Shown here: piece by piece, positions 41,353 through 60,573 of the stretch | Numbering within the stretch: position 1 is the stretch's first letter | How the letters are laid out: each line of letters opens with the position of its first letter | Source: Methylophaga nitratireducenticrescens | GTDB lineage: Bacteria; Pseudomonadota; Gammaproteobacteria; Nitrosococcales; Methylophagaceae | Direction of reading: 5' to 3' | DNA length: 64,000 nucleotides | NCBI RefSeq assembly: GCF_000260985.4 | Contig: NC_017857.3 | Span: 682,001-746,000, forward strand | Position numbers and translations under genes: made by a program | The notes under the pieces: model-generated | The model's input: the letters and a program-made list of their open reading frames with translations, nothing else | What the model was told of the DNA's origin: nothing | Database searches by the model: none

Positions 41353-42162
41353 TTGAACATTAATGGATATCTGAAAAAAATAGAAGCAGGTGAGCCAATC
41401 AATTTTTCAAGGCTACTATCTCTTCTGCCAAGTTCTCTGCAAAATAACTACAGGGCTTATTTTTCTTTTGAGCTGGTGTCACCACAGCGGTGGATTGTTC
41501 AGTGCGATGAATCTGTAATAAATGAGCTCAAAACAATAGCAGAAATCCCCTCCAACCGGATTGCCGCAGCCGTAAAAGGGGATTCACACAAAGTAGCTGT
41601 TTCTTATGGATATGTACTGATATATCACGAAGGCATAAAAGACAGCCGTCCAGAGGTAGTCTATTTTGAATCAGAGGCTTTTATTCAGCCACACTCTCCA
41701 AAAACCAATCTCATCTTGATTGAAAATGAAGAAAATTTTTTCAGGTGGAGGGACATGCTAACGGTCTTCAATAAAATGTCTGACTATAACTACAGTATTG
41801 AAAATACCGATATCTGTCTCGGAAGTGGCAATCGGTGTTCGTCACCTTTGCTGGTATCATGGCTAACGCAATATGAGTCTATTTTGTGTGCTTTTGACTA
41901 TGATGCAAAGGGATTAGAAATGTATCAATCTCTGAATACAAAGCTCGGCAATAAAGTGAAGTTTTTTATGCCGGAAGCTTTTGAAGCCTTGTCCTCTTTA
42001 TTTAGGATGAAACCAAAAGATATAAAGCAACTCAATAAGGCTGTTGTTTTGGCTCATAAAATGAAATTTGATCAGTTGGCAGATACATTTATGTCAACGC
42101 GACGCTTCATGGAGCAAGAATCTCTTTTAATGGAATATGAAGATGAATCAACAACGGACTGA
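41353..42162 (+). CDS. jetD: Wadjet-type TOPRIM nuclease subunit (JetD/MksG-like, short form)
   Basis: A 269-aa protein. The C-terminal half has a TOPRIM-like layout: a conserved Glu in LILIENEENFFRW (about residue 124), a glycine-serine turn (LGSGNRCSSPLLVSW) and the acidic pair FDYDAKGL (about D182/D184). In Wadjet/MksBEFG systems this subunit cleaves plasmid DNA. It is shorter than the roughly 380-aa JetD I know, so the N-terminal arm is reduced. It starts with TTG; the next gene overlaps its end by 26 bp. The operon order makes the role likely. Confidence 0.65.
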   Translation: MNINGYLKKIEAGEPINFSRLLSLLPSSLQNNYRAYFSFELVSPQRWIVQCDESVINELKTIAEIPSNRIAAAVKGDSHKVAVSYGYVLIYHEGIKDSRPEVVYFESEAFIQPHSPKTNLILIENEENFFRWRDMLTVFNKMSDYNYSIENTDICLGSGNRCSSPLLVSWLTQYESILCAFDYDAKGLEMYQSLNTKLGNKVKFFMPEAFEALSSLFRMKPKDIKQLNKAVVLAHKMKFDQLADTFMSTRRFMEQESLLMEYEDESTTD

Positions 42163-45067
42163 AGATACAATCATTTATAGAAAAATTATTCTTGTCGATT
42201 CGGCAGGGCTTGGTTTTGTTGAAATACCAATTGACCACCATGCCATATTATTAGGCAAAGGTAACGTTGGTAAATCGAGCATCCTCAATGCCATCCGGCT
42301 GTTTTTACTTCCAGAAAATAATTTTCACAAAAGTCAGCTCAAGTTTGGTTTCAGAGTGCCTAAAAAAGATGCCTATTACTCGAATGATGAGGCATATCAA
42401 CATTATTTTCCGAGTAGTAGAAGTTTCTTAATTATTGAAGTGCAAAACTACGTTGGCACCCATTGCCAAATTCTCCACCGAAGTAACAATCTCGGCTATG
42501 GTCGGATCTTTACACCTTTCGAATTTAATCGTATTCGCCACCTTTTCTGGGAGCTTGGCAATGATGATCAGGGTATTGGCCGAGCAGTAGACGATTTATC
42601 AGTAAATAGCCTCACAGCAACATTGAAGAAAATGTCATCCCATACGCAAATCGCAAGTGATCCTTCTAAAATAAAGAAACTCATATATGGCACTGGAGAT
42701 TTTTTGGATCCAGAAGCCATTAGATATGCATTGTTTCCATTGCTTAAACCTGATGATGCCAGTATTGAATCGTTAAGGGCGCTTGTTTTACTCCTTTTTG
42801 AAATGAATGCCGGCAACAAAACAGTCACTACTGCAATTGCTAATATCATGGAAGCCGGTAAGAAGCGTGATGAAGATGTACTGGACTTTAATATCGATGC
42901 TTTTTTTACTAAGCATGATGAACTGAAAAAAGAAGAGGCTAGACTTACTCGTATCAAGAATGCCCAGCCAGCCTTTCAATCGCTCAAAGCAAGTTATAGC
43001 CGCTATATGCAGCTGCAAGATCTCGAAGCGAGATACCAATCTTTTGAAAAGGCTGTAAGTGAGGCGGAAAGCAGGCTGGCGAGCGAAAGACAGTCAAATG
43101 ATAAAGTTTACGAAAGTTGCAAACAAACTAAACTGTCAGCAGATATTTACAGGCAAGAATTAGCTGATAAGCGAACAGGATTAAAAGAGCTTCTGCGTGC
43201 AGACAAAGCATTGCAAATAGATAGCACTAGAGCGCTTAAAACATATGAGCAGATCCGACTAGAATTTCCGGATGATATTTCTGATTCAGATATTTTGGAT
43301 AATTTGATTGCTGACAAGCAGGACAAAACAGAAGATATTGAGGCGCTACTTAATTCAGAAAAAAATATACAACGACGACAACACTTAGAAAAAAAACTTA
43401 GCGAAAAGCGAGCCCAGTACGAAAGATTGATACTTTCAAAGGAAAATGGTGCTTTTCGCATCTCTGAGCAGATTAATTCTCAGGTTCAAAGTGTATTAGC
43501 TGCAGTGAATAAAGGATTGATTCTAGCTAATCCTAATAGAGCTTTAACGACGGATGAAATTGACAAACTTACCCAGTTCTCCTCGTTATTCACTGAAAGT
43601 AATGAGACTTATCAATTTTTCGATAGAAATTTCCAAAAGCAAAATGCTGCTGTTGATATAGACGAGCAAAGAGATATTTCAGAACTAAAAGCAGAAATTG
43701 TTTCGTATGAAAAGTCACTTAAGTCTATAACGGTCGAAAACGACCAAAATCCTCTGCTTAAGAAAAAGCAGCTTCAAGATCTTCAAAAACAGCTTGAGAA
43801 AACCATTGCCGATCTCGAAGTTGTTCAACACATTGGCTTTCATCGCAAACAAATGTCCGATGTTTCTAAACGAGTTGAGCAAAACACAAAGCTTTTACAA
43901 GAGACTGAGCAAGATCTGGAAAAAGCGAACACGGAATTTAATAATGCTCTCTCCAAACTGAATGATGCCAAACAAGACAGCGAAAAAATCAAATCAAAAA
44001 GTAGTAATCTGATTCTAATCAAGGGCAGATTGAAGACATTAGCAAATCGCTACCCACGACTACTTGAGGGGGAGGCGCTACCTAATGAACTGATAGAGAT
44101 AAGCATAGACTTGGTGAATGTCTTTGAGGAGCAACTACAATTATTTGATAAATTAAAAGTAGAAGTTCTATCGACTTTAAAGGATATGCATCATGAGAGG
44201 CTCTTTAGCTTTAGAGAGATTTTAGAAACTCCGGATGACGGTATTATCATGAGGGCTGTACAAGAGCTCTCCCGCGTTTTCGATGAGCTGCCCGAGCAGG
44301 AAGCTTTCCTGAGAGCTCGGATCCATGAGCATAATGAGTCTGTTGCAAGTTATACCAAAATCCTTCGGGACACCTCGGATTATATAGCCCGCTTTGAAAA
44401 CAGTTTAAATCGCAGCTTTGCGAGCGTTCAAATAAATGATCTTGAAAAAGTTGAAGTCAACATTTCAGTGCATCCCAAATTCAGAAATCTGATTGGAGAA
44501 ATAGTAAAGCTTAATATTCATGGTGAACAATTACCATCGGAGCAGTTTTACGACAGGCTACGTGTGTTTGTTGATGAATTTTTTCGTGATGAAGAGTCAC
44601 GCCTCACGATGGATAAAATTCTCACAGCTTTGAGTTACAAAACACAAAAACGCAATGAATCTTCCATGCAAGCCAAAGAGCAGTCTACCTCAACCACCGA
44701 GCTCATCAATTTTCAATTGGTTCAGGTATTGCTCGATAGAATGACCGTGAATGGGATGCGTGTGCAGATGCCATTGGTTTATGACGAGATAGCTAATGTG
44801 AATTTGGATCAGTTCGATTGGTTATTACCACACCTTGAAGATAACGGATTCAGCCTTTTTTCTGCTTCTACATATAGTGCGAGCAGTGAGCTTATTCATA
44901 AAGTTGGGCGATTTATTGAAATTGGTAGTACCAGGACTGGTCGTCCATACCACCAAGGCCGCGATATCGTATGTTGGAACAGCGAGGAAGGTTTTGAACA
45001 TGCGGAAGCTTCTTATCTCACAGGGTTGGAACTAGCTGAGCAGACAGACTGGCTAGAAGATGACTAA
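42137..45067 (+). CDS. jetC: SMC-like ATPase of Wadjet/Mks system (JetC/MksB)
   Basis: A 976-aa condensin-type ATPase. Walker A GKGNVGKSS lies at about residues 38-46. Long coiled coils (about 250-420 and 530-700) flank a hinge-like middle. The C-terminal head carries a signature-like STSTTELINFQ (about 849) and Walker B MPLVYDEIANV (D/E about 882). MukB-like length and head spacing match JetC/MksB. In such systems it extrudes DNA loops and selects circular plasmids for cleavage. It may start at ATG 42137 or 42143. It overlaps both neighbours, so the operon is tightly coupled. Confidence 0.8.
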   Translation: MKMNQQRTEDTIIYRKIILVDSAGLGFVEIPIDHHAILLGKGNVGKSSILNAIRLFLLPENNFHKSQLKFGFRVPKKDAYYSNDEAYQHYFPSSRSFLIIEVQNYVGTHCQILHRSNNLGYGRIFTPFEFNRIRHLFWELGNDDQGIGRAVDDLSVNSLTATLKKMSSHTQIASDPSKIKKLIYGTGDFLDPEAIRYALFPLLKPDDASIESLRALVLLLFEMNAGNKTVTTAIANIMEAGKKRDEDVLDFNIDAFFTKHDELKKEEARLTRIKNAQPAFQSLKASYSRYMQLQDLEARYQSFEKAVSEAESRLASERQSNDKVYESCKQTKLSADIYRQELADKRTGLKELLRADKALQIDSTRALKTYEQIRLEFPDDISDSDILDNLIADKQDKTEDIEALLNSEKNIQRRQHLEKKLSEKRAQYERLILSKENGAFRISEQINSQVQSVLAAVNKGLILANPNRALTTDEIDKLTQFSSLFTESNETYQFFDRNFQKQNAAVDIDEQRDISELKAEIVSYEKSLKSITVENDQNPLLKKKQLQDLQKQLEKTIADLEVVQHIGFHRKQMSDVSKRVEQNTKLLQETEQDLEKANTEFNNALSKLNDAKQDSEKIKSKSSNLILIKGRLKTLANRYPRLLEGEALPNELIEISIDLVNVFEEQLQLFDKLKVEVLSTLKDMHHERLFSFREILETPDDGIIMRAVQELSRVFDELPEQEAFLRARIHEHNESVASYTKILRDTSDYIARFENSLNRSFASVQINDLEKVEVNISVHPKFRNLIGEIVKLNIHGEQLPSEQFYDRLRVFVDEFFRDEESRLTMDKILTALSYKTQKRNESSMQAKEQSTSTTELINFQLVQVLLDRMTVNGMRVQMPLVYDEIANVNLDQFDWLLPHLEDNGFSLFSASTYSASSELIHKVGRFIEIGSTRTGRPYHQGRDIVCWNSEEGFEHAEASYLTGLELAEQTDWLEDD

Positions 45068-46466
45068 ACGTTTTAATACCATTGAAACACTTAGGGTGAT
45101 GTTGGCTCACCCAGACATAATGTTTGACTCCATTCAAACAATGGATGATCTGAATAGTCGCTTTATTAGAGAGACAGACTTTATAAGGCGCATTAGAGAC
45201 TACATGACGAATCTGTCTGATGAGGATCGTAAACGCGTTCAGGTGGCATTTAAGACGAATAACCTGTTACGAAATCAAGTTATTGCCGATATTGCGAAAC
45301 ATGATGGAGAGCGGCTTCTGGTGTTTCAAGATGAAGTTCTCAACCTCTTTCGGTTATGTGAAGCATCACTTCATCAGGAATTAACCGACTCAAGGTTAAA
45401 GAGTCATCTGGATAGCCTAAGAGCAGTGTGTATCCGACTTGAGTCGGCAAGCTTTAGTGACTTGGATCCTGACTACACTGAGCAACGTGATGATCTGCTC
45501 AAACAACTTAGTGACCTGCTAGGGGTACTCAGAAAAAACGTTTCTTCCATAGAAAGTCTCAATCAACAATTGGAGAAAATTTCGGCCAAGGCCAGTTACA
45601 ACGAACAACATTTTGCCCGTTTTAGGCAGGAGATGTTCAATAACATCAGTCAAGTATATGAACGTCATATTAAACCCGTGCTCGCATTCTTAAATGATAA
45701 AGCCAGGTTAAGTGATGGACCAAACCTTTTCAAAGTTTTGCACGAAGTCCAATCTCTTTTTGAGCGACGAAATCATCCCAACATTGCGGATCAGATTTTT
45801 TTGTTTTCAATGAGTTTTACTAGTGTATATAAACCAATGAGCCGTATCTCGGCTGAAGTCGAGCGTTTTTTGAGAAAGACTCGCCAAGGCATATTGGAAT
45901 CAAATGCAATGGAAAGTTCTTATCAATTATTACTGTCTAAATATGAAGAAACGACAACCAGTAATATGCGAAAAAAGTTTATCGCCAAGTCCTATGCTCA
46001 AGAGTCAGGTTATGTCGTTGGACTGAAGAGAAGACCCCGGCCACAGACATACCGCTTTAGCGACTCGAAATCCTATCTAGATAATTTCTTCAGTGAAATT
46101 GAACTTCGTTTAGATGATATGACCAGATTAAAAAGTATTTTGCCAGAATCGGGGCTCTACCAGAGAGAAGGAAATGCGGATGAGCGGATGAGGAGGGCTA
46201 AGCTATTATTTCAATTTATTGATGGTATGCGATTTCGTCCAACACAAGATCTATTGGCAGCGATGCATCAAAGATTAATCAGCGGGTTTGGCGAGTATGA
46301 AATTCATGACTTGCTTTCATCTCTGATCAGAATCAGCCAACGCTTTCAGGGAAAAGATAGTGAATTAATTATCAATACAACTAATCGCAGGCGATACCTT
46401 CAACTTGATGATAAAGCCTTTTACTATCGTGTCAGAATGTTGAGTAGGACAATCCAACATGAATGA
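45060..46466 (+). CDS. jetA: Kleisin-like subunit of Wadjet/Mks system (JetA/MksF)
   Basis: A 468-aa, mostly helical protein. An N-terminal winged-helix-like region (residues 1-90), a long helical middle and a C-terminal winged-helix-like end (LSSLIRISQRFQGKDSELII) follow the MukF/MksF plan. Primary sequence similarity is low by eye, so the call rests on size, layout and position between the ATPase and the MukE-like gene. It overlaps jetC by 8 bp and the next gene by 8 bp. Confidence 0.65.
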   Translation: MTKRFNTIETLRVMLAHPDIMFDSIQTMDDLNSRFIRETDFIRRIRDYMTNLSDEDRKRVQVAFKTNNLLRNQVIADIAKHDGERLLVFQDEVLNLFRLCEASLHQELTDSRLKSHLDSLRAVCIRLESASFSDLDPDYTEQRDDLLKQLSDLLGVLRKNVSSIESLNQQLEKISAKASYNEQHFARFRQEMFNNISQVYERHIKPVLAFLNDKARLSDGPNLFKVLHEVQSLFERRNHPNIADQIFLFSMSFTSVYKPMSRISAEVERFLRKTRQGILESNAMESSYQLLLSKYEETTTSNMRKKFIAKSYAQESGYVVGLKRRPRPQTYRFSDSKSYLDNFFSEIELRLDDMTRLKSILPESGLYQREGNADERMRRAKLLFQFIDGMRFRPTQDLLAAMHQRLISGFGEYEIHDLLSSLIRISQRFQGKDSELIINTTNRRRYLQLDDKAFYYRVRMLSRTIQHE

Positions 46467-47076
46467 GTTACAGACAGAATTTGACGCTGTGAGAGCATCA
46501 GATAGTCAACAGATATACAAAGCACTTACGGCAGGCAAAATAATCTCTAAATATTTCTATGATGACCTCAAGGCGGAAATAAAACAAAGCCCGTTATTTA
46601 CGGTTATTTTTAATCATCTTGGACATTTCAAAAAACTCTATCAACATATCGGATTTGAACTCGTATTTGATCCCGATGGTGATTTTTTCTACGTCAGAGA
46701 TTATGACGAAGGTGAGACAGAAGAGGCTGATGAAAATGCTTTTAGAGTCCAAGTTGCACTATTAATAATTGGCAGATTTTACTCCCGTTCGGGACGAGAT
46801 CTGGAAGGACTCATTCGACCAGACATGGGATTGGATGAAACAGACTTTCGTATCTTGTCTGATACAGAGGAATATATAGATATTTTGCAGGCTTCAAGAT
46901 TGCCCTCTGATTGGATAAAAGTGATGGATTTTCTGCTCGAACGAAGTTTTGCTCATCGGTTGGGAGAGCAGCGATATATCCTTAATCCCGCTGCATTGAG
47001 CTTTTTGAGTAGACTTGTTACCAATTACAACCAACAAGTTGAAATACATGAAGATTTTGAGAAGGTGTCTATTTGA
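46459..47076 (+). CDS. jetB: MukE/MksE-like subunit of Wadjet/Mks system (JetB)
   Basis: A 205-aa protein that resembles DUF4194/MksE: two winged-helix units, a central acidic turn (YDEGETEEADENAFRVQVAL), and the family-like ending VMDFLLERSFAHRLGEQ with NPAALSFL. In condensins MukE binds the kleisin and helps load the ATPase. It overlaps jetA by 8 bp and ends the operon. Confidence 0.68.
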   Translation: MNELQTEFDAVRASDSQQIYKALTAGKIISKYFYDDLKAEIKQSPLFTVIFNHLGHFKKLYQHIGFELVFDPDGDFFYVRDYDEGETEEADENAFRVQVALLIIGRFYSRSGRDLEGLIRPDMGLDETDFRILSDTEEYIDILQASRLPSDWIKVMDFLLERSFAHRLGEQRYILNPAALSFLSRLVTNYNQQVEIHEDFEKVSI

Positions 47077-47442
47077 AGCTGGAATTTGTCAACGATACTG
47101 GGGGCTGTCCATTAAATGGCTGAAGGTATCTAGTAAATTAGTGGCGATTCAAAGTTACTAAAAAGTGAGTTGCTGATTAGTCAAGCAGATGCTTTGCAGC
47201 AGATTGCGGAACTTAAACATGAAAACTTTAGATTACGAACAGAGCTTGCTAAATTGGGAAGTGCGAACATTGAGCTGCAAGCCAGAATAACAGGGTTAGA
47301 GCAAAACACATTTGAGTATAGCAATAAAAAAGTAGTGAAAATCCTTATTACATGAGCCAAAAAGGACATTTTATAACGATCGTTATCCACATTGGCTTGA
47401 ATCAAATACTTGATAATGTATACCAGGGACTTCTAGTAAATA
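47077..47442. other. Intergenic region with palindrome and possible small coiled-coil ORF
   Basis: 366 bp between the Wadjet-like operon and the ATPase gene. A 61-codon frame from TTG 47170 (AELKHENFRLRTELAKLGSA) would give a short coiled coil but lacks a ribosome-binding site. Closer to the next gene is the perfect palindrome listed separately. Confidence 0.4.
47373..47386. promoter_or_regulatory. Perfect 14-bp palindrome upstream of GHKL-ATPase gene
   Basis: ATAACGATCGTTAT is a perfect dyad 56 bp before the ATG at 47443. An outer pair AGCCAA / TTGGCT (47355 and 47392) lies around it. It is a candidate operator; the binder is unknown. Confidence 0.4.
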
Positions 47443-48549
47443 ATGCAAGAAGATATTGAAAGAATTTTAACGGAAACTCCAGGATTGCGTGGCAGGCAAA
47501 TCGCTAAGAAATTAGGAGTAGACAAAAAAGTTGTCAATTCGTACCTAAGCAAACAGAAAGGGGAATTCGTAAAAGACGAAGATCACTGTTGGTATGTTGC
47601 TGGTGCTGAGTTACAAATCAAGCTTAATGGCGATACCTGGGTTAATGGTCTTTCTTTTGATAATGCAATCAAAAGGGTGGGATCACCGTTAGAACCTGGC
47701 TGTAAGTCAGTCCATTTTATTTTGCCCGAAGGTTGCAGGATATTGTTAGAGGCGGCGGCCCGTTTGCTCGCTATTTCCAACCAGGCTGCTTTAGCCGGTA
47801 AAGATGTAATAATCGACTTTAGTGACTGTAGTAGCACGCTCACATATTTTGACCGTATGGGATTTTTTGATCTTCTAAACCCGATGATTAGTGTTAAGCC
47901 TGACAAACCACGCACGTCACGGGCCTCAATTTATCACGGGAATAGTGAATCTGTTTATGAGTTTGGTGAAATTGATCCCCACGATCTTGATGAAAATATT
48001 CCAAAAAGACTAAAAGAAAGCTTTGTTCATTATGCAGGTGTGGAATACTCACAACCTGCTTTTACAGTTCTTTCAGAGTTGTTCGGTAATGTTAGGGACC
48101 ACTCCGACTCGCCAATACCCGGATATATCGCTCTACAGCGTTACAAAGGGCATGACGGTCGTAATCCGGTTGCCCCCCATATTCAAACTATTGTCTCCGA
48201 TAGTGGTAGGGGCATAACAGGCACTTTGATGCCAATCCTGGAGAAAAAATATCCTGACATTTACAGGAAATTCGATTTTAGCGATCCTTCCTCAAAACCG
48301 CTCTTGATCAAAGAGGTTATAGAAAAAGGGCAAATCTCACGAGTCGAAGATGATGGTCATGGGCTTGGCCTGAAACGGAGCGGAGATGTAGCAGCATCCT
48401 ACAATGCCACCATCTCTGTGAGGGAAGATACTTTTGAGCTCAAACTATCGTATAAAGTAGGAAGATTAGCCTCGACCTCCTATGAGCTTGATCTTCCAAA
48501 GATGTTGGGATGTCATATTTGTTTTGACTTCATCCTTGCAACACGTTGA
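47443..48549 (+). CDS. Winged-helix/STAS-like/GHKL ATPase regulator
   Basis: A 368-aa protein with three parts. Residues 1-50 look like a winged helix (GLRGRQIAKKLGVDKKVVN). Residues about 75-150 have a STAS-like pattern (GKDVIIDFSDCSSTLTYFDR). Residues 200-340 are a GHKL ATPase: N box VLSELFGNVRDHS, G1 box VSDSGRGI and G2 box DDGHGLGLKRSG. No histidine-phosphorylation box is present, so an anti-sigma-like or switch ATPase is more likely than a classical kinase. The STAS/winged-helix gene follows after 22 bp. Confidence 0.7.
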   Translation: MQEDIERILTETPGLRGRQIAKKLGVDKKVVNSYLSKQKGEFVKDEDHCWYVAGAELQIKLNGDTWVNGLSFDNAIKRVGSPLEPGCKSVHFILPEGCRILLEAAARLLAISNQAALAGKDVIIDFSDCSSTLTYFDRMGFFDLLNPMISVKPDKPRTSRASIYHGNSESVYEFGEIDPHDLDENIPKRLKESFVHYAGVEYSQPAFTVLSELFGNVRDHSDSPIPGYIALQRYKGHDGRNPVAPHIQTIVSDSGRGITGTLMPILEKKYPDIYRKFDFSDPSSKPLLIKEVIEKGQISRVEDDGHGLGLKRSGDVAASYNATISVREDTFELKLSYKVGRLASTSYELDLPKMLGCHICFDFILATR

Positions 48550-48571
48550 GTATTCTGATTAAATTAACAAG

Positions 48572-49120
48572 ATGAAACAGATTAAGATTCTTATGCGCCT
48601 TCTCGATTTTACTGATAATGACCATCCCTTTGGCAATAAGCAGGGCCGAGAAGTCTTATTAAAGCTGTCGGACTACATCGACGAGCATTCAGCAGATATT
48701 TACGAAGTGTCATTGGAGGGGATCATTGCCACCGATGCCTCTTTCCCCAGGGAGAGTGTCATCTCTCTTGCCAAGATGTACAAAGGCGAAAAGGGGTTCT
48801 ATCTTACGGGCCAGTTCTCCAAAGACTTGCTGGATAATTGGCATTATGCGGCTATTGCCAAAGAGCAACCGCTTATTCTGAAAGAAGATAATGGGTATAA
48901 AGTCATAGGGCCGAAACCTATAGGAGGCGCCGAAGAACTCCTTAACTTCATAATGAAAGAGGGGGAAGTCTCAACCGCAAAAGTGGTCCAGAAGTTTGGC
49001 GTTTCTGCCCAAAACGCCAGTGCCAAATTGAAGAAGCTATTCGCCACGGGCCTTATTCTAGGCCGTAAGACTGTAGCAGAGTCCGGTGGACTTGAATTCG
49101 TATATCGAGCGATCAAATAA
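48572..49120 (+). CDS. STAS-like (DUF4325-type) and winged-helix protein
   Basis: A 182-aa protein. Residues about 30-80 form a STAS-like core (VSLEGIIATDASFPRESVIS, then AKMYKGEKGFYLTG). Residues about 115-175 are a winged helix (EGEVSTAKVVQKFGVSAQNA, then LKKLFATGLI). STAS domains commonly bind GHKL ATPases, so it likely pairs with the preceding gene and acts at the dyads just downstream. It ends at a small terminator before the Ubl operon. Confidence 0.65.
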   Translation: MKQIKILMRLLDFTDNDHPFGNKQGREVLLKLSDYIDEHSADIYEVSLEGIIATDASFPRESVISLAKMYKGEKGFYLTGQFSKDLLDNWHYAAIAKEQPLILKEDNGYKVIGPKPIGGAEELLNFIMKEGEVSTAKVVQKFGVSAQNASAKLKKLFATGLILGRKTVAESGGLEFVYRAIK

Positions 49121-49123
49121 AAA

Positions 49124-49151
49124 TCTGATAAAACCCCTTGATTTAACCAGA
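49124..49151. promoter_or_regulatory. Imperfect dyad, site 1
   Basis: TCTGATAAA and TTTAACCAGA arms with a 9-nt middle. It closely resembles site 2 at 49202, 78 bp away. Candidate operator for the adjacent winged-helix protein. Confidence 0.45.
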
Positions 49152-49173
49152 AATAAGCCATATTCTATATCGT

Positions 49174-49196
49174 AATGGCGTATAGCCATTTTTTTA
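49174..49196 (+). terminator. Short rho-independent terminator before the Ubl operon
   Basis: The stem AATGGC / GCCATT with loop GTATA is followed by T residues. It separates the regulator pair from the downstream operon. Confidence 0.65.
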
Positions 49197-49201
49197 AAAA
49201 A

Positions 49202-49229
49202 TCTGTTAAAACAGGTTAGATTTAACAGA
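49202..49229. promoter_or_regulatory. Perfect-arm dyad, site 2, in front of the Ubl operon
   Basis: TCTGTTAAA-N10-TTTAACAGA, with 9-bp arms in perfect inverted symmetry. It ends 19 bp before the first start codon of the Ubl operon, so a bound repressor would block initiation. Confidence 0.6.
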
Positions 49230-49248
49230 AATAGTCAGGAGGTTGGTT

Positions 49249-49422
49249 ATGGCTACAAATCCACCGAAGGGTGACGGGCATCGTAACGGGGCGGTGAAAG
49301 GCCGCTCGCAGACAAAGACCCCGTCAGGGCATTACGTGAAGCGGAACGCGGATACGGGGCGTTTCATGGACGTAAAGACATCATCAAAAACGCCGTTTAA
49401 GGGCGTTCGCAAAGAGAGATAA
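49249..49422 (+). CDS. 57-aa basic glycine-rich protein of the Ubl operon
   Basis: A short gene with a strong AGGAGGT ribosome-binding site 6 nt before the ATG. The protein begins MATNPPKGDGHRNGAVKGRS and contains GHYVKRNADTGRFMDVK and a basic end PFKGVRKER. I recall similar small proteins beside bacterial ubiquitin-like operons, but no function is known. The Ubl gene starts 10 bp after its stop, so it is the first gene of that operon. Its basic, flexible nature would suit a substrate, RNA/DNA-binding or adaptor role; this is inference. Confidence 0.75.
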   Translation: MATNPPKGDGHRNGAVKGRSQTKTPSGHYVKRNADTGRFMDVKTSSKTPFKGVRKER

Positions 49423-49432
49423 GGAGTCTGTA

Positions 49433-49681
49433 ATGAGTAACGAAAAATCAAATCGTCCAGAATTGTTTATTGATAATGAAAGGTATGACTGGGACAAAGA
49501 TACCATCACTGGATCGGAACTCAGGGAACTGGGTTCGCTGCCTGATGATGTTGAAATATACTGGAAAGAGCCCGGAAATCCTGATTTTCCGGTAGAGAAT
49601 GATACAGTTGTCAACTTGACCCAACATCCGGGACCGGATCGGTTTTCGACACAATCTGTCGGCTCACAGGCGGGGGCATAA
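49433..49681 (+). CDS. Ubiquitin-like protein (multiubiquitin-family fold, single domain)
   Basis: An 82-aa beta-grasp-type protein: LFIDNERYDWDKDTITGSEL, RELGSLPDDVEIYWK and a VVNLTQHPGPDRF end match the bacterial multiubiquitin domain pattern. Unlike eukaryotic ubiquitin it does not end in GG: after the domain comes a 13-residue tail ending VGSQAGA. It may be trimmed by the JAB domain of the downstream fusion or conjugated through a different end. The gene is 2 bp before the E2-like gene. Confidence 0.82.
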   Translation: MSNEKSNRPELFIDNERYDWDKDTITGSELRELGSLPDDVEIYWKEPGNPDFPVENDTVVNLTQHPGPDRFSTQSVGSQAGA

Positions 49682-49683
49682 TC

Positions 49684-50088
49684 ATGCCCTTGTTCCTTGA
49701 TGAAGATTACGATGCGTTAAAGGAACGGGGTGTTTTGTTTGTCGAAGAGGAGGCACAGCGGTTTTTTGTGATACAGGGCTATAAGTTATCTGATAGCGTG
49801 TATAAGCAGGATTGCTGCGATGTTCTCATTGTTATTCCAAGCAATTATCCTCAAGCCGGAAACGATATGTTCTGGACAAATCCCCGGTTGGTAAGGGCAG
49901 ATGGAAAAGCTATTCCACAAACGAATGAGCCTGGCGGCGGGGACAACCGGATTTTCCAGGGAAAAGAGTTTTGCCGGTGGTCGAGACACTGGAATCAAGG
50001 TTCCTCTGTCTGGCGACCAGGTAAGGATAATATCGTTACTATATTGCGAAGAATAGATTGGGCGTTAAGGAGACCTAATGCCCAATGA
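49684..50088 (+). CDS. E2-like conjugating protein (prokaryotic E2 family E)
   Basis: A 134-aa protein with an E2/UBC-like plan (strand-rich start FFVIQGYKL, then CCDVLIVIPSNYPQAGNDMF with the family proline-rich turn). The conserved-looking segment EFCRWSRHWN holds a candidate catalytic Cys at residue 97. Some bacterial E2-like enzymes are reported to use serine instead, so the nucleophile is not certain. Its stop overlaps the next start by 4 bp. Confidence 0.75.
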   Translation: MPLFLDEDYDALKERGVLFVEEEAQRFFVIQGYKLSDSVYKQDCCDVLIVIPSNYPQAGNDMFWTNPRLVRADGKAIPQTNEPGGGDNRIFQGKEFCRWSRHWNQGSSVWRPGKDNIVTILRRIDWALRRPNAQ

Positions 50089-51533
50089 ATAGGCCTAGAT
50101 TGACATTGCTTGGAACGCAGCACGAAGCGCTCGTAGAGTATCTTGAAGCGCACCCTGATAACCATGAAAGAGGGGCTATTGTTTTGTTTCGTAGGTTGCA
50201 TATTAGCGTTGAGGGGTTGACCGACTCTGACCGCTATCTTGCTAAAGAAGTCATCTATTTTGATGCTACATGGATAAACAGCAGTTCCCCAATTCATTTT
50301 GACTTCAAACTCGCCCCTTTAAGAGAAGTTTTCAGACGTTGTGAAGAAGAAAGTCTTGTGTTTGGTTTCGTACATAATCATCCCCAAGGGAAAACCACAT
50401 TTTCCACTAAGGATGATGAGAATGAACTTACGCTTTTAACGGCGCTAAAAAATCGCAATGGTGAGAATATCACCTTCGTTTCGATGTTGTGGGTGAATGG
50501 TGGATGGGAAGCCCGTATTCGGACAGGCACAGAACAGGAAACTGCTATACCGGTTAGGCATACGCTTGTAACTTCTCCGCCATTGCAGATATTCGGCTAT
50601 CAGGACAGTAGTGACGAGCACTCTGAAGTCCATGCGCGGGGCGCTGCTGCTTTTGGCAAGCCCTTTGTAGACAAAATCAAGTCGCTTCGTGTCGGTATTG
50701 TCGGAACTGGAGGGACAGGTAGTCCTCTTGCTACTTTGGGGGCTCGGGCCGGTATAGGTGAACTGGTATTGATTGACGATGATGAACTGGATCGAAGTAA
50801 TCTAAACCGTGTCAGAGGACTAGGTGTAAAAGATGTTGGAGATAAGAAAGCCCTCAAGTTAAAAGAGTATATTGACAGCATCGGATTGGAGGCCAAAGTT
50901 GCAGCCTGTGACGCTAAGATTGATGAAGATCCCTTGGCACTGGATGCACTGGCCAGTTGTGACGTGGTATTTGGCTGCACTGATGATTTTGTCGGAAGAG
51001 AAGTGATGAATATCGCTCTCTACGCTTATGCCCAGACTTTTATCGATCTTGGCCTAGGGGGCCGCATCCTTGATGATGAAACTGGACAGCCTGTTCTCCG
51101 CTACCACTTTGGGCGTATCAGTACGATTATGCCTGAGTTTGGACAATGCTTGTTTTGTCAGGGTGTCATTCGTGATGTATGGGTTCAAACTCAGCTTGCG
51201 CGGCGAGAAAATCCCGATATAACAAAAAAAGAGCTAAAGGAAAGATACCTTGAAGATGGCGGTGAAGAGGCTCCCGGTATTGGCCCCTTTACCAGTGCTA
51301 CGGCAGATTTTGCACTTGCCACTTTATTTGATCTGATCAAACCTTTCAGGCGCTATCCCCTTGAATTACGAAGGGATATGTTTCATGTGGACTTTGTAAA
51401 AATGGAACTCAATAGTCATCAGACAAAACGGGACAATGAATGTCCCTATTGTGAGCAGCACGATTTTCTATTGATGAAAGAGCAATACCGGTTAAGACGT
51501 CCTTTGCTAGGAAAGCGTGATGAATATGTTTAA
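50085..51533 (+). CDS. JAB deubiquitinase-like and E1/ThiF fusion protein
   Basis: A 482-aa fusion. Residues about 1-150 are a JAB/MPN metalloprotease domain with the JAMM set H97-N-H99-P and S107/D110 (VHNHPQG, FSTKDD). Residues about 195-460 are an E1/ThiF adenylating domain: nucleotide loop VGTGGTGSPLATLGARAG, DDDELDRSNLNR, and the zinc-type pairs CLFC and CPYC. It can both process and activate the Ubl. A candidate catalytic Cys lies in FGCTDDFVGR. Compact fusion of DUB and E1 is known in some bacterial Ubl operons. Confidence 0.85.
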   Translation: MNRPRLTLLGTQHEALVEYLEAHPDNHERGAIVLFRRLHISVEGLTDSDRYLAKEVIYFDATWINSSSPIHFDFKLAPLREVFRRCEEESLVFGFVHNHPQGKTTFSTKDDENELTLLTALKNRNGENITFVSMLWVNGGWEARIRTGTEQETAIPVRHTLVTSPPLQIFGYQDSSDEHSEVHARGAAAFGKPFVDKIKSLRVGIVGTGGTGSPLATLGARAGIGELVLIDDDELDRSNLNRVRGLGVKDVGDKKALKLKEYIDSIGLEAKVAACDAKIDEDPLALDALASCDVVFGCTDDFVGREVMNIALYAYAQTFIDLGLGGRILDDETGQPVLRYHFGRISTIMPEFGQCLFCQGVIRDVWVQTQLARRENPDITKKELKERYLEDGGEEAPGIGPFTSATADFALATLFDLIKPFRRYPLELRRDMFHVDFVKMELNSHQTKRDNECPYCEQHDFLLMKEQYRLRRPLLGKRDEYV

Positions 51534-51948
51534 AAAAATAATTGATTGGATTGCCGGTTTTTTCAGGGAAGGCCAAAAACACACAGATGGGGTAATCCCG
51601 TCTGAAAAGTCCTTGCCGCCTGTCCATTTCCGTGCAGTCAATGTTGTCGAGAAACCACCAAATAACGAGAATGTAGAGGCAGGCAATTTATATTGTGTTG
51701 TCTCTTCTGGAAGAATGAAATGGTCGCTCTTCAGTTGTCCCTGTGGTTGTGGAAGCGTAGTAACCTTGTCCCTACAACCCGTTCATAATCCTTTTTGGAG
51801 ACTGACAAAGACTACTTCAAGCCGTCCGACACTCCATCCTTCTGTATGGAGAGACAAAGGATGTTTAAGCCATTTTTGGATTAAAGACGGACGAATATTT
51901 TGGTGTGCCGATACAGGAATCCATCCTGACTCTCGAAGGCTTTCGTAA
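51517..51948 (+). CDS. DUF6527-family zinc-binding-like protein of the Ubl operon
   Basis: A 143-aa protein. The first 20 residues are hydrophobic/amphipathic (FKKIIDWIAGFF). The core has a cysteine cluster CPCGCG, then LHPSVW, GCLSHFWI and GRIFWC, which is the DUF6527 pattern. That family recurs beside bacterial Ubl conjugation genes, with unknown role. It overlaps the fusion gene by 17 bp and is the last gene of the operon. Confidence 0.75.
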   Translation: MMNMFKKIIDWIAGFFREGQKHTDGVIPSEKSLPPVHFRAVNVVEKPPNNENVEAGNLYCVVSSGRMKWSLFSCPCGCGSVVTLSLQPVHNPFWRLTKTTSSRPTLHPSVWRDKGCLSHFWIKDGRIFWCADTGIHPDSRRLS

Positions 51949-52443: not shown

Positions 52444-55400
52444 ATGGACCTGAACACTGCTTCAAGTGAAGAAATATTTGAATCCATAGCATCAAACTTT
52501 GCTGTAACGATTCGTTATCCCCCTATTGTCGATTTGTTCGAACGGTTGTTTGAGCTGGCAAGTCTTGCTGAATTGCATGCTGACAAATTACCCAATTTAC
52601 CTGACTTTTTAGACAAACAACGGATACAGACTGCACAACAATATCTCATACAAAGAGGGCTTGGACGACAAGGCTCAGTTCGTGAGGGTAATCCGGCATT
52701 TGGCTTATATGGAAAATCGCCACTAGCCTCAGCTGTTATGCAATCTGCTGATATAGAATGCAAGGAAATATATGATGGGATCTGCATTCTATTAATACTC
52801 TATTGCACAGAACAAAATTCACCTTCAGCAAGAGATGACGCCTCCCATGAAGTCAGACAATCTGCTAGATCAGTCAATCCCAGATATCGTTTGTTATCAA
52901 AACTGCCTCCCCTAACCAATGCTTCAGAGGACTATCACCTCAAAATTCGGGCAAAGCTACAAACTATCGAAAATGAAAACGTCAAAAAAGCTCAGCATAA
53001 ATTATTTTATGTTCTGCAAAACCTCTCAAGCCTTGAAAGAAAAAGAACAAAGCCCTCTCGAAAAGAAAATGATCTTACGACGACGATTATTAATTCCAAA
53101 AAAAACGGCGTTTGGAATGAAATAAAACTTCCTGGAAATATTAAACAGGTTTATGAGTCATCTGCTGAATCTGGTGAGCCACCGATTAAAACAACTGTAT
53201 TCGAATCTGATACAGAAGTTGAGCATGATCCCATTATTTTTGATTATGCTGTGCGCAAGGCCAAAAGTTGGGTTCAAAAATCTGAAACCTTCTCAAGAGT
53301 TGATACGACTGCACTAAATGAGCTGGAAAGGACTGAGTTTGTTTCACAGCTTAAACTGCTGCTTAAGAAACAGTTTGGTGAGAGTGTAATTGGTTTTGCA
53401 ATTGCTCTTGTCTACTTATTGGGATTAGAGCTTAGCCAAATTCTCAGCACGAGATGGGGAGCCGTTGGCTTTATTGATCTTCAAGGGAGGTTAATAAAGT
53501 CATTACCGGATTTACCCAGAGTATTTCGTTCAGAAGAGAGTTTAGCTCTCTCTTTATGTTATCTACCACTCCCTAGCTTAGTGAGTTCTTGGATTAAACA
53601 GCATTCACTGCAATTAGCTGGCAGTGATTCACTTCTCGCTTCAACAGATCAAAACGAAAGTGGTTTTGTTTCCAAAGTTCATAGTTTGCTGAATCGCTGG
53701 CGCCGACATGGACGTTATCGTTTTAAATTACCCAAACTGGCCGCTGCACTCTCAGCAGAATTGACCTATCAAACAAGAGATCCACTGATCATAACCACTT
53801 TAGCAGGTGATCTAAAAACCGAACCCCCAGTTTTGATGTATTACCGTGTATTGAAGGGTGATGAATTGAGTCTAGTCTATGAAAAGACGACAGACTCCTT
53901 GCTCAATATTCCGGAAGATTTGCTCGGTTTCGATTTTGGATCAAGCACTGAGCTTCCTGAAAATGTTAAAGGGCTAGTTGATGGCATTACAGCTAAACTC
54001 AAAAGCAAATTGAACCGTTATCCTGCCAACATTATTCAAACACACAACGTTATCATGTATTTCACGCTGACGATGATGCTGTTTGCAACTGGTCACCGTC
54101 CTGTTCGTGATCCGTTTTGCTGGTGGGATGAGCTTGATATCAATTACGAAGGGGTTCTCATCAGCGATAAGGTCGTGTCATTAAGGCATGAATATCGATA
54201 TCAGGTTATCCCCAAAATTGTCCAGACACAGCTTATAACTTACCGTCGTCATTTAAGGCAATTAGGTGCGCGACTATACAGAGATAAGTCCCTAAAAAGA
54301 CAAAAGCTCGGCGTGGCAATCCTGCACTGCCAGGAAGGAAGCTCAAAAAATCTGCCAGTATTTTTTGAGATTGATGAATTAGGAGTGAAGTACTTTTCTG
54401 TTACTCAGAAAAGTTTGCAGACTTATTGGCAACAATTTTCGGAGCTTCCGACAAATGCTGGACGTTCTGTGATGTGCCAACTTCTTGTTGATAATGGGGT
54501 GCCATCTGGCATCGTTGAGCTATATCTTGGACATATCCATGGTTTGTCTCATCGACATGGTCCACGAGCCGGACATGCGCCAGCAGTTGATTTTACGATC
54601 CTCACCAAAGAGATTGAGCAGGCTATGAAAATTCTGGGCTGGAAACATTTGAGTCCATTCAAGCAAAATCGTGATCGGATCCGACTGCCGAAAAAATTCA
54701 AACAATCACTGCTTATTAGTCAGTCAAAAAGAGCTTTTGGGCCCGAAAAACGTCGCTTGATAAGAGTACAAAATGAGATTCATATTAAGCAAATAATGGC
54801 CAGCGCCAGAGTCGATGTTTTCAGTAAGGCTAACAACAGATACTTTCAAAAAGAGCAGGTCAATCAATTCTTCGATCGTATAAAGATAGATTGTCATCAT
54901 GCCGGCCTTAGTATTCAGCGTGGTACAAACTTGGCATCACGCTGGCTGGTCAATGAAAGCCGAAGAGGAGTGACAATCGAAGACTTTCGTCCCGCTCGAA
55001 CCATAACTGCGGAATCATCGGTTATAAGTCAGAAAATTTTCCAAGATCGGCAAAACTCTAAAAAACTCCAGCTCTCGTTGTTATCAGAATTTTCTGTCCA
55101 GCAGAAGCCAGATAGTGTTGAGCAGTCTCTGGCTGAGCTTGTTGTTACAGCTGCTGTCTTTGGTGGTCTGGCTAAACCAGAAGCTCTAAAAATGCTTCCA
55201 GAACATATATTCACAGATATGTTTCGAATTGGTGTGAAGGGAGGCATTATCGAATTTAAAGAACATAGGTGGCTTCCTGACTCGTTGACCCTGTCACGTA
55301 TTATTTACATTCGAAATCATTATTGCTCAGAGCAAGTATTAAAGGGCATTGGAGGGCTACAAAGTCAGCTCATTCTATACCTTAAAAAGCATGCTTTAAA

Positions 55401-57723
55401 GTGCACCCGGGACAATGTGTTTAGACGGCTTTCCGAATTGGCTCAGGCCTTGAATACTTGGCATTTACCGGGTGCATTTCATAATTATTGGATACCTAAA
55501 TCCGAGGGCAGACATTTGCCTCTGCACCGGTTAAATACATTGTTAGAAGATAAGTCATATTTCCCTAAGAACACAATTGAAAATGTTGTCGAAGATGAGG
55601 CCGTAGATTGGCTTCCTGCATTGAGCAAGACCCATTCAAAATGCCTGACTGCGACGCAGTGCTGGCGAGACATCAAGCACATATTTAAACAAGTTGAACT
55701 AACTCAGCCTGTTGGTACAGAAAAAAGGAATAGTGGGCTTAAAGCGAAACTGGAAAAGCAGTTAAAAAAATACTCTGAGCGGGATGAAGTGAGTGTAACG
55801 GGTAAAATCTTGATTGCCTGGTTGGTGGCTCGTTGTCATTATGGTTTTATGAAAGAGAACTTGTCATTTCCGACAATTCAGCGCTATGCCTCTGAAATTT
55901 TTCATCCAATACTGACACTTGTTGAAGGCGATATACGGTCTTTTGATGAAGATGATTTCGAGGAACTGTATTGGGAGTGTATAGAATTTGGCGGTGGTGA
56001 TAGGCAGTATCGTCTTGGACGATTGTATGACTTCCATCATTTTTTACAGATACATCTCGCGTTACCTAACATTAGCTGGTCAGGGCTTTTTGCATTCACT
56101 GGGCTTAATTCGGTTGCATCCTCAATTGATGCAAATATTCTCACAATCAAAGAATATGACGAGGCCATTCAGACTATAAATAATGATGTCGGTTTAACGC
56201 CTTGGTTGAAAGCACGTTACATAATGACCCTGATGCTTGGGTACCGATTCGGATTGCGGTTTGGTGAAGTGTTAAAGCTTAGACATGTTGATGTTCAGCG
56301 TGACGAAAATAAAATTATCCTACAAATTCGAGGGTCAGTGCATGGCGATCTAAAAACTCGCTCAGCAACCAGACAAATACCGCTCATTGGAAAGTTAAGT
56401 GAGCAGGAAGAAAAGGTCTGGGAGATAGTGACCTTGGAAGCGGAGAGGTGGATTCAACAGGATCACCAGACGCTATTATTATTTGATGGCGAATCAGTCA
56501 GAACGTCGATAGATAAACAGCAAACTCGAGGATATTTAAACAAACTATTGAAATATGTCAGTAGCGATAAAAGTTCGCGCTTTCATCATCTAAGGCATAG
56601 TTTTGCCAATCGTCTGGTGGCATACGCTTACAATCTGCAAGATCCGCTTTGGAATCAGATTTCACGCCGATTGATCGGACGGTTTGGCACGAAGCATCTG
56701 CCATTATTGTGGTCATCAAATGATGAAGCAACTATCAAACTTCAGGCAATTGCGGATGTAATGGGACATGCCTCTATTCGCACCACAATGTCTAGCTATT
56801 TCCATTTTCCAGAGATTTTGGGGCGAGCACTTCATAACCAATTTGAACTGAATTTGTCGCCTAAAATCATGGCTTACATGTTAGGGCCGAGTGAGTCTAC
56901 GCTGCAAAAGCGTCGTGAACGTTATAAAAGCAGAAACGATATGCAGGCTTACTTTGCCGGCGAACCGATCAAAAATTTTTTTCCATTGTTAACGACTCAG
57001 CTTCAACCAGCCACCCATGACGGCGATGCCTGGCGTTATACCTTTACTCAGATGAGCGAGCCAGTAACTATTCAAATGATTGACAAAGTTTTGGTACAAA
57101 ATGCCAGAATGCAAAACGTCAGTGCATCTCATTCAAATAATTTTTCATCTGAAGTTATTGAAAAAGTATTACTCCATGCAGCGAACATTCAGGCCAAAAC
57201 GCGGTTTGATTTTTACCAAGTGCGACTTGAAGATCCTGATGCCATCGGAAGCGATGAGTTTGTGGGAAGTAAATTCCAAGAGAATGTTCTTGAAGCAAAA
57301 AGAGTGAACACACAATTGGTTTTGTTGGATAAGATAATAACTGAGGTAGCTGCAATAGATGCTAAAGGTTTCTCAACTCAGGACTTAGCGACTTGGCATG
57401 TTGACAAGCAATATAGTAAGAGTTGGCGTTTTTCGACCCTGTCATCATTGAATGCATTTATAGAACTGCTGGCATTTCTGCCACTAAATGATGCAAAATT
57501 CAAATTAATGTTGCCGACAGCATTCGCGCTTTCTGATGACTTAAATGCCAAGCTACGAAATCATCCTCTGAGGTTTGAGATTGCATCTGATAAGCAGCTG
57601 AAAAAAGATGCGCTAATTAAATTGGTTGCTCTTCCTGCAAATTGCAAAACTTATCAAACGGCCAATCGAGTACTGTTTTGTCTTATCGTATGGTTGCATT
57701 TCAACTATGACACGGCGATCTAA
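52444..57723 (+). CDS. Giant (1759-aa) tyrosine recombinase-like protein
   Basis: The C-terminal third has a complete tyrosine-recombinase active site: R1272 (YRFGLRFGEVLKLRHVD), H1381-x-x-R1384 (HHLRHSF), H1442 (MGHASIRTTM) and Y1452 (SSYFHF). An earlier region (about 530-710) looks like a second, degenerate copy: TGHRPVRDPF at about 551, then RSVMCQLLVDNGVP at about 673 and LGHIHG at about 693, but no nucleophilic Tyr. The first 330 residues and the last 300 have no recognised domain. Large recombinases of this sort occur on gammaproteobacterial islands. It overlaps the convergent gene by 4 bp. Confidence 0.75.
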   Translation: MDLNTASSEEIFESIASNFAVTIRYPPIVDLFERLFELASLAELHADKLPNLPDFLDKQRIQTAQQYLIQRGLGRQGSVREGNPAFGLYGKSPLASAVMQSADIECKEIYDGICILLILYCTEQNSPSARDDASHEVRQSARSVNPRYRLLSKLPPLTNASEDYHLKIRAKLQTIENENVKKAQHKLFYVLQNLSSLERKRTKPSRKENDLTTTIINSKKNGVWNEIKLPGNIKQVYESSAESGEPPIKTTVFESDTEVEHDPIIFDYAVRKAKSWVQKSETFSRVDTTALNELERTEFVSQLKLLLKKQFGESVIGFAIALVYLLGLELSQILSTRWGAVGFIDLQGRLIKSLPDLPRVFRSEESLALSLCYLPLPSLVSSWIKQHSLQLAGSDSLLASTDQNESGFVSKVHSLLNRWRRHGRYRFKLPKLAAALSAELTYQTRDPLIITTLAGDLKTEPPVLMYYRVLKGDELSLVYEKTTDSLLNIPEDLLGFDFGSSTELPENVKGLVDGITAKLKSKLNRYPANIIQTHNVIMYFTLTMMLFATGHRPVRDPFCWWDELDINYEGVLISDKVVSLRHEYRYQVIPKIVQTQLITYRRHLRQLGARLYRDKSLKRQKLGVAILHCQEGSSKNLPVFFEIDELGVKYFSVTQKSLQTYWQQFSELPTNAGRSVMCQLLVDNGVPSGIVELYLGHIHGLSHRHGPRAGHAPAVDFTILTKEIEQAMKILGWKHLSPFKQNRDRIRLPKKFKQSLLISQSKRAFGPEKRRLIRVQNEIHIKQIMASARVDVFSKANNRYFQKEQVNQFFDRIKIDCHHAGLSIQRGTNLASRWLVNESRRGVTIEDFRPARTITAESSVISQKIFQDRQNSKKLQLSLLSEFSVQQKPDSVEQSLAELVVTAAVFGGLAKPEALKMLPEHIFTDMFRIGVKGGIIEFKEHRWLPDSLTLSRIIYIRNHYCSEQVLKGIGGLQSQLILYLKKHALKCTRDNVFRRLSELAQALNTWHLPGAFHNYWIPKSEGRHLPLHRLNTLLEDKSYFPKNTIENVVEDEAVDWLPALSKTHSKCLTATQCWRDIKHIFKQVELTQPVGTEKRNSGLKAKLEKQLKKYSERDEVSVTGKILIAWLVARCHYGFMKENLSFPTIQRYASEIFHPILTLVEGDIRSFDEDDFEELYWECIEFGGGDRQYRLGRLYDFHHFLQIHLALPNISWSGLFAFTGLNSVASSIDANILTIKEYDEAIQTINNDVGLTPWLKARYIMTLMLGYRFGLRFGEVLKLRHVDVQRDENKIILQIRGSVHGDLKTRSATRQIPLIGKLSEQEEKVWEIVTLEAERWIQQDHQTLLLFDGESVRTSIDKQQTRGYLNKLLKYVSSDKSSRFHHLRHSFANRLVAYAYNLQDPLWNQISRRLIGRFGTKHLPLLWSSNDEATIKLQAIADVMGHASIRTTMSSYFHFPEILGRALHNQFELNLSPKIMAYMLGPSESTLQKRRERYKSRNDMQAYFAGEPIKNFFPLLTTQLQPATHDGDAWRYTFTQMSEPVTIQMIDKVLVQNARMQNVSASHSNNFSSEVIEKVLLHAANIQAKTRFDFYQVRLEDPDAIGSDEFVGSKFQENVLEAKRVNTQLVLLDKIITEVAAIDAKGFSTQDLATWHVDKQYSKSWRFSTLSSLNAFIELLAFLPLNDAKFKLMLPTAFALSDDLNAKLRNHPLRFEIASDKQLKKDALIKLVALPANCKTYQTANRVLFCLIVWLHFNYDTAI

Positions 57724-60284: not shown

Positions 60285-60513
60285 TGCAATACCCCCCGGA
60301 GGCCATGGGTAATAGCGCACCATTCTCTTTTGATACTTTTCCGATATCTCTCTCGACAGCTTCCCATAGATAAAGAGTTTTTCTTCCACCAAATGGACGG
60401 ATATAGTGAATTCCTTCTAATAAGACAGAGTCTTTTAGTTGATCACGGATTGTTCTAGGGGTGTATTTAATTAGCTTAGCGAGTTCTTCAGTTGTAAGGT
60501 AAGTCTGACTCAT
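60277..60513 (-). CDS. Excisionase-like HTH protein
   Basis: A 78-aa protein from ATG 60513 (MSQTYLTTEELAKLIKYTPR). It has the helix-turn-helix pattern of AlpA/excisionase proteins (TIRDQLKD, then GGRKTLYLWEAVERDI). It overlaps the integrase start by 8 bp, the usual xis-int arrangement. The upstream extension to 60564 has no ribosome-binding site and reads as non-coding. Confidence 0.75.
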   Translation of the reverse strand: MSQTYLTTEELAKLIKYTPRTIRDQLKDSVLLEGIHYIRPFGGRKTLYLWEAVERDIGKVSKENGALLPMASGGYCNG

Positions 60514-60543
60514 AGATAATCTCCAAGATGCTAAGAGCAATAA

Positions 60544-60573
60544 TATGATGCTCTGGAGATACATTATGATGCT
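60544..60573. promoter_or_regulatory. Direct repeat TATGATGCT, 21-bp spacing, in divergent promoter region
   Basis: TATGATGCT occurs at 60544 and 60565, two helical turns apart, between the divergent excisionase and XRE genes. It could be a binding site for either regulator. Confidence 0.3.

Follow-up and report, generated by a model that had tools for sequence, protein, structure and literature searches.

Genes of the Locus

A stretch of 64,000 nucleotides from Methylophaga nitratireducenticrescens (assembly GCF_000260985.4, contig NC_017857.3) was analyzed for an operon that codes for a ubiquitin-like conjugation system. This stretch, called the window, covers 682001-746000 of a genome that consists of a single contig (3.135 Mb); coordinates given below are those of the window. 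What is read directly from the sequence are the assignments to families, the conserved residues that are candidates for active sites, the operator-like sites and the position of a glycine in the ubiquitin-like protein (Ubl). The operon consists of five open reading frames (ORFs) on the same strand (+), which overlap or are separated by a few bases. The first codes for a basic protein of 57 aa (49249-49422, with AGGAGG at 49237-49242) and the second for a single-domain Ubl of 82 aa (49433-49681). They are followed by a BubB-like E2 of 134 aa (49684-50088), a JAMM-E1 fusion protein of 482 aa (BubCD, 50085-51533) and a DUF6527 protein of 143 or 140 aa (51526-51948, with 51517 or 51520 as start alternatives).

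An earlier note on this DNA had described five tightly packed genes at these positions and a Ubl ending in VGSQAGA; both the ORFs and this C terminus were confirmed. Absent from its gene list is a CapK/CapS-like pair upstream (47443-49120), which we propose as the control system of the operon.

Assignment to the Bub Group

The E2 belongs to the Pfam family Prok-E2_E (121.7 bits), and its best sequence match in the PDB is Citrobacter BubB (9eae, E=7.3e-8). The E1 part of the fusion protein matches ThiF (108 bits), and the best PDB sequence match of the fusion is Citrobacter BubCD (9ea4, E=6.8e-22, residues 52-433). The Ubl, which we take to be BubA-like, matches Multi_ubiq (25.5 bits, cut-off 24.5) and a multi-ubiquitin domain-containing protein in the PDB (9d59, E=4.6e-5), and the last protein matches DUF6527 (PF20137, 79.9 bits). 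Hence four of the five domain families named in the earlier note were found above the cut-off, while Prok-JAB fell short of it (see below). Since E2 and fusion protein have their best matches in BubB and BubCD, the operon is assigned to the Bub group, which upholds the note on this point. A fused deubiquitinase (DUB)-E1, which the note had taken to mark a less studied variant, is the known Bub form: the solved Citrobacter protein bears the name BubCD, and a JAB-E1 fusion has been described in polyUbl operons (PMC11354881). Bub operons have also been described in PMC13373217.

Three marks of Bub are found in the window, these being an E2 related to BubB, a JAMM-E1 fusion related to BubCD and a Multi_ubiq Ubl with a glycine (Gly81) at a conserved position. 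Judged by its sequence, the locus is a genuine additional Bub-type operon. It shares with Citrobacter Bub a Ubl, a Prok-E2_E protein and a fused JAMM-E1, but its E1 is only distantly similar. It also differs from Bub in its Ubl which, as in the nearest relative found (L005, a gammaproteobacterial metagenome-assembled genome), is single-domain, is not fused to the E2 and carries a tail of one residue. In addition, an extra gene (PDC-S38, see below) stands in first place.

The active sites are well-conserved. In the fusion protein, E28, H97, H99, S107 and D110, which we take to be the JAMM pattern, are invariant in 18/18 aligned E1 relatives. The same applies to the E1 nucleotide site (G207, T211, G212, S213, D231, D233, N239, R242 and K255), so that the note was right about both sites. 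Trp99-Ser100-Arg101-His102 (WSRH) of the E2 is invariant in 17/17 sequences, and this alignment has no invariant Cys column. Bub intermediates are reportedly oxyesters, not thioesters, and Bub operons are said to contain a protease with a Ser-His dyad. The WSRH motif without an invariant Cys appears to fit such an oxyester route, and likewise the label "inactive E2-like" used in a review (PMC11354881).

The DUF6527 protein has Ser106 and His116 among 12 columns that are invariant in 16/16 sequences. We take it to be the Ser-His protease of Bub operons, which these two residues would fit, and regard it as a putative Ser106-His116 protease for processing or deconjugation. This is also consistent with PMC12687455, according to which Bub operons come with a Ubl, an E1, an E2 and a specific protease. 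A DUF6527 profile search of the PDB sequences gave 0 hits, and a literature search for DUF6527 gave no paper.

For comparison, 35 loci were examined, the sources being plasmid records, genome draws and L005. The Bub-type set consists of 28 of them, chosen for clear matches to E1, E2 and Ubl alike. The other seven (L042-L047 and L053), in which the E2, Ubl or DUF6527 match is weak or lacking, were left out of the Ubl test described below; a weak DUF6527 match does occur in L043 and L053, and the Ubl of L053 ends in ...NFG. DUF6527 is present in 28/28 loci of the set, and thus is not the extra, variant-marking protein of the earlier note. In four of these (L013, L020, L048 and L054), it is missing from the PLSDB gene table, yet the open frame is present in the DNA.

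The Conserved Glycine of the Ubl

To examine the position of the glycine, the Ubl core was located with a profile that excluded the window sequence and lacked the last ten residues, so that it is blind to the Gly; the residue ten places beyond the core was then scored. In 28/28 Bub-type Ubls, this residue is Gly. Some of these Ubls are seeds of the core profile (although the Gly lay outside of it), and not all of them are independent (L008 nearly duplicates L011, and L012 and L013 are close). The Ubl gene of L009 is broken by an IS66 element, and its C-terminal part alone was read; the Ubl of L048 is annotated as two overlapping genes. The end of the core is abbreviated here as GxxRF, but reads RVERF, GVESF, GLEHF, GIEKL, GVERL or GVEKF in 9/28. 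The conserved Gly is followed by nothing in 6/28 Ubls, by a tail of 1-8 residues in 8/28 (including the window and L005) and by an in-frame E2 in 14/28 (L006, L009, L012, L013, L016, L017, L019, L021, L039-L041, L050, L054 and L055). The latter natural fusions are joined right after the Gly and would need cleavage in order to work.

The window Ubl reads GPDRF-STQSVGSQAG-A, with Gly81 at the family position and Ala82 as a one-residue tail; the ending is the same in L005. The lack of a terminal GG, which had seemed special, is a puzzle that on this sequence evidence largely dissolves: the family keeps one position-conserved Gly plus an optional tail. The question of how the Ubl is activated without a terminal Gly becomes that of which enzyme removes Ala82. 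This may be DUF6527 or the JAMM domain.

The Proposed CapK/CapS Control Region

The two genes upstream of the operon resemble, at the sequence level, CapK and CapS, a published pair of a kinase activated by single-stranded DNA (ssDNA) and a repressor. The CapK-like kinase (47443-48549, +) has an HTH-STAS-GHKL make-up by similarity to CapK and is predicted to be activated by ssDNA. Its HATPase_c match (23.8 bits) is under the Pfam cut-off of 26.4. It is 44% identical to the CapK whose gene adjoins the published Enterobacter roggenkampii capS (L019), and its Trp66 aligns with the ssDNA-stacking Trp68 of the published CapK. The CapS-like STAS-wHTH repressor (48572-49120, +) matches 9z72 in the PDB (titled MarR family transcriptional regulator, E=1.9e-59) and is 47% identical to L019 CapS, WP_001567865.1, the accession given for E. 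roggenkampii CapS in PMC13373217. According to that paper, CapK/CapS occur upstream of Bub operons, CapK is switched on by ssDNA and phosphorylates Ser54 of CapS, and phospho-mimic CapS loses binding to its sites. The equivalent of Ser54 is Ser57.

Between capK and capS lies a narrow palindrome, TTAAATTAA (48559-48567), which is letter for letter the published narrow CapS site. The corresponding position reads TTAATTTAA in L005 and has a single TTAA in L056, a CBASS (cyclic oligonucleotide-based antiphage signaling system) operon. Between capS and the operon, a consensus scan indicated a terminator-like hairpin followed by a T run (49174-49190, +). It is followed by a perfect palindrome with 9-bp arms, TCTGTTAAA-N10-TTTAACAGA (49202-49229), a candidate wide CapS operator. 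Thus, the window has capK directly followed by capS, together with the phospho-Ser, the ssDNA-stacking Trp and TTAA palindromes. It shares with the published system the gene order, both residues, the identical TTAAATTAA and a second palindrome before the operon, but differs in the half-site spacing of the latter (see below).

The 57-aa Protein and the PDC-S38 Family

The 57-aa protein matches the PADLOC profile PDC-S38 (PDLC05010) with 106.3 bits over 57/57 positions, and also phrog_12550 (77.1 bits). PDC presumably stands for "phage defence candidate". There was no Pfam match at E<=1 and no NCBIfam match at E<=0.01, and a search of PDB sequences with the PDC-S38 profile gave a best E=0.067, taken as chance. 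The name PDC-S38 occurs in no paper found by literature search, and a search of the available text of PMC13373217 for a small protein, leader or short open reading frame gave none. The earlier note had listed this protein as an extra component of its variant; it is indeed additional, belonging to a recurrent family, but it is not specific to Bub.

The protein is highly conserved (22 aligned relatives share 54-93% identity with the window protein). When seven proteins of the window were compared with their L005 counterparts, it came out as the most conserved (93%, compared with 89% for Ubl, 78% for E1, 75% for E2, 68% for DUF6527, 51% for CapS and 45% for CapK). The copy in L056 is 89% identical, with 57% for CapS and 38% for CapK. 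The ratio of nonsynonymous to synonymous differences per site (pN/pS) is 0.07-0.25 between the window and nine homologs, with synonymous sites near saturation against most of them (pS is 0.46 to L005 and 0.71-0.98 to the other eight).

The genomic neighborhoods were analyzed in two draws, in which PDC-S38 was found in 15/369 genomes of the class (E<=0.001) and 13/398 genomes of the phylum (E<=1e-8), the window genome and G365 being in both. The sample comprises 26 loci including the window, 25 of them examined with their flanks. Clear members (E<=1e-16) are present in 19/26 loci, including the window, L068 and L069; the weak loci left out are L070-L074, L095 and L096 (no member was detected by profile in L074). 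An ORF for a CapS-, WYL- or XRE-ImmA-like regulator lies at most 400 bp upstream of PDC-S38 in 13/19 clear loci (12/18 when the window is excluded). These regulators are CapS once (the window itself), WYL nine times (the match in L090 being weakest, 3e-19) and XRE-ImmA-like three times (with L067 settled by hand). The two genes are divergent in 11/13 pairs (8 WYL, 3 XRE-ImmA) and co-directional in L088 and the window. WYL domains are rare, with 79 matches in 94 genomes. Taking 80 matches and assuming genomes of 2.7 Mb, the chance rate is about 0.00025 per random position, although genes of defense islands would be a fairer baseline. In six clear loci (L064, L089 and L091-L094) and in the seven weak ones, the vicinity of PDC-S38 showed no match to any of the three regulators.

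Loci picked by similarity are outside of this count. Among these, CapS is adjacent in L005 and L056, and WYL in L057 and L058; L100 has a same-strand ImmA/IrrE-like match beside PDC-S38, and no regulator adjoins it in L059, L060, L097-L099 and L101-L105. An unannotated copy in Methylomonas has a WYL gene beside it and recB and recC behind. CBASS-like genes follow CapK/CapS in V. gigantis and WYL in Burkholderia at PDC-S38 loci. A DrmD-like helicase (686 bits) is encoded on the WYL side in L063, an HKD+Snf2-type helicase is near PDC-S38 in L062, and L088 has a UvrD-like helicase and PD-(D/E)XK nucleases.

Judged from these neighborhoods, PDC-S38 seems to accompany CapK/CapS-, WYL- (CapW-like) or XRE-ImmA-like (CapH/P-like) regulators irrespective of the type of effector (Bub, CBASS, DISARM-like, SNF2/PLD helicase or RecBC-like). 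By analogy with CapW and CapH/CapP, the WYL and XRE-ImmA regulators may be damage-responsive. Because PDC-S38 stays constant beside faster-changing regulators and effectors, it probably acts on a target that the hosts share (e.g., DNA, RNA, the ribosome or RNA polymerase), not on its operon neighbors. It is tempting to speculate, at somewhat less than even odds, that many unrelated immune loci have PDC-S38 in common as a component that is induced by DNA damage and acts on a target shared by its hosts. Against a strict link with the regulators stand the loci that lack one, the decayed L068 and L069 and the phage copies. The association with regulators is newly described; the family itself is known in PADLOC, with no function given.

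Some further observations concern this family and other small proteins. The decayed-looking copies beside WYL genes are at 6029-6196 (L068, truncated) and 6655-6824 (L069, frame-split) of contig G009:C100. A more distant branch of the superfamily (VQVKNPRSxxYVK...) occurs in L071, L072 and L073, followed in L072 and L073 by a protein of 213 or 207 aa. Close behind PDC-S38, a YdjM-like membrane protein is encoded in five loci: L056 (7176-7541, Pfam 55.9 bits) and, by similarity to the L056 protein, L061, L062, L063 and L066. It may be a CBASS-type membrane effector. Other small proteins stand at the start or end of Bub operons in L010 (6206-6451), L014 (3576-3803) and L007 (3449-3640, -). Two are annotated as DUF2188 (Pfam-confirmed in L014), and that of L007 is a Lys/Ala-rich ORF of 64 aa. 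YegP homologs after capK/capS have been reported in 57 cases (PMC13373217).

Genomic Setting

The own genome has no second copy of the Bub operon; three other E1 matches cover the ThiF-like part only. At E<=1e-30, the window E1 was found in 1/38 genomes drawn from relatives (the own genome) and in 3/369 drawn from the class, the window included. L005 contains a type I restriction gene as well as capK and capS, behind which the 57-aa gene and the Bub genes are arranged as in the window. Window positions 47300-51000 have no match in the E. coli genomes searched. Twelve phage records match just 23-35% of the window E1, within its ThiF-like part. A viral scan for E1 gave one locus, and one with a single DUF6527 protein gave none.

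Upstream of capK (42137-47076) is an SMC/MukBEF-like three-gene cluster; its products are proteins of 976 aa (weak P-loop match) and 468 aa, plus a member of the MksE family (76.8 bits). PADLOC gives it a weak JetB match only. The Bub operon is followed by a gene for an unusually long protein of 1759 aa (52444-57723), with a tyrosine-recombinase domain (residues 1233-1397) as its sole domain match. Its plasmid relatives are partial, with 220/224 records in Acinetobacter. The integrase that adjoins the Bub operon of E. roggenkampii has no meaningful similarity to this protein, and a link between the two was rejected. Further downstream (59103-63202) are genes for an integrase (-) and a type I restriction R-subunit-like protein (+). 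Because of this second integrase and the restriction-like gene, the locus looks like a mobile defense island.

Proposed Mechanism and Alternatives

The explanation that we favor, with a probability of about 0.8, is that of a CapK/CapS-controlled Bub operon which makes conjugates of a Ubl ending in Gly81. We infer every biochemical step of it, as well as a damage response in the Methylophaga host, the substrates and any anti-phage benefit. DNA damage would generate ssDNA, which would activate CapK. CapK would phosphorylate CapS at Ser57, CapS would come off its two sites (48559-48567 and 49202-49229), and the five genes of the operon would be turned on. A protease of the operon (DUF6527, else the JAMM domain) would remove Ala82 and expose Gly81, which the E1 half of BubCD would adenylate. 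The E2 would then receive the Ubl, the most probable linkage being an ester on Ser100 of WSRH, and transfer it to target proteins. Conjugation would be reversed by the JAMM domain, by DUF6527 or by both. PDC-S38 would be a co-induced accessory with its own target, outside of the tagging cascade. An anti-phage function of the operon would be plausible.

Several points weigh against this explanation. The Pfam score of the Ubl is marginal, and that of Prok-JAB on the fusion protein (16.8 bits) is below the cut-off of 25. With PADLOC 2.0.0, the Ubl, the E2 and the DUF6527 protein are left without a match, and the E1 is labeled by its ThiF part only (best 58.4 bits). The oxyester chemistry and the Ser-His protease of Bub rest on what Ye et al. 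2026 reportedly state in their abstract. The six loci with a tailless Ubl carry DUF6527, too, so that co-occurrence cannot name the trimming enzyme, and DUF6527 probably does more than trimming. In the candidate wide operator, the TTAA half-sites are 12 bp apart, compared with 10 bp in the published site. Arms of at least 8 bp occurred in 96/2000 mononucleotide shuffles of the intergenic region, and a sigma-70 consensus scan found no promoter-like site at this palindrome; for both reasons it is the weaker evidence. The palindrome scan (arms of at least 6) also misses the published E. roggenkampii sites, the arms of which are shorter.

Three alternatives have to be considered, which concern the type of system, the end of the Ubl and the role of the 57-aa protein. 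A BilABCD-type anti-phage system with thioester chemistry has the same kinds of parts and the same Ubl/E1/E2/JAB logic, and the window Ubl weakly matches Methylobacterium BilA (PDB 8u38, E=0.013). However, in Bil systems, E1 (BilD) and DUB (BilC, which processes BilA to expose its Gly; PMC11354881) are separate proteins, whereas they are fused in the window, as in BubCD. The E2 of Bil is Cys-based, BilB using Cys138 of a CEHH motif (PMC11354881), whereas the window E2 is a Prok-E2_E protein that matches BubB and aligns with its relatives without an invariant Cys. Bil membership was rejected on the E2, and we consider a Bil system hardly credible.

The gene as encoded ends in ...QAGA, and L005 ends alike, so the Ubl might instead be used unprocessed, with adenylation of the C-terminal Ala82 in a Gly-independent system. 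This is improbable, given the fixed position of the Gly in all 28 Ubls with variable or no sequence beyond it, the need to cut half of them from their E2 to expose a C terminus, and the two candidate proteases encoded next door. The position test led us to reject it as the principal explanation. Somewhat less remote, although still unlikely, is that the 57-aa protein belongs to the Bub machinery, e.g., as a substrate or a cofactor of E1 or E2. Its gene is the first of the operon in the window and L005, and directly follows DUF6527 at the operon end in L017 and L051. It was found, however, in just 4/28 Bub-type loci (five of the 28 having short flanks). It also has the 89% identical copy in the CBASS operon L056 and is present beside WYL genes at loci where the Bub seeds found nothing.

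Under the favored explanation of a CapK/CapS-controlled Bub operon, the locus joins newly described and uncharacterized elements. The rule for the Ubl (a Gly ten residues after a GxxRF-like core, then anything) states where a Bub Ubl must be cut. The roles of DUF6527 and the JAMM domain would thereby become directly assayable, with the natural one-residue tail as a minimal substrate. If the proposal for PDC-S38 is true, this family would constitute a common layer in bacterial immunity, which the small size of its gene makes easy to overlook.

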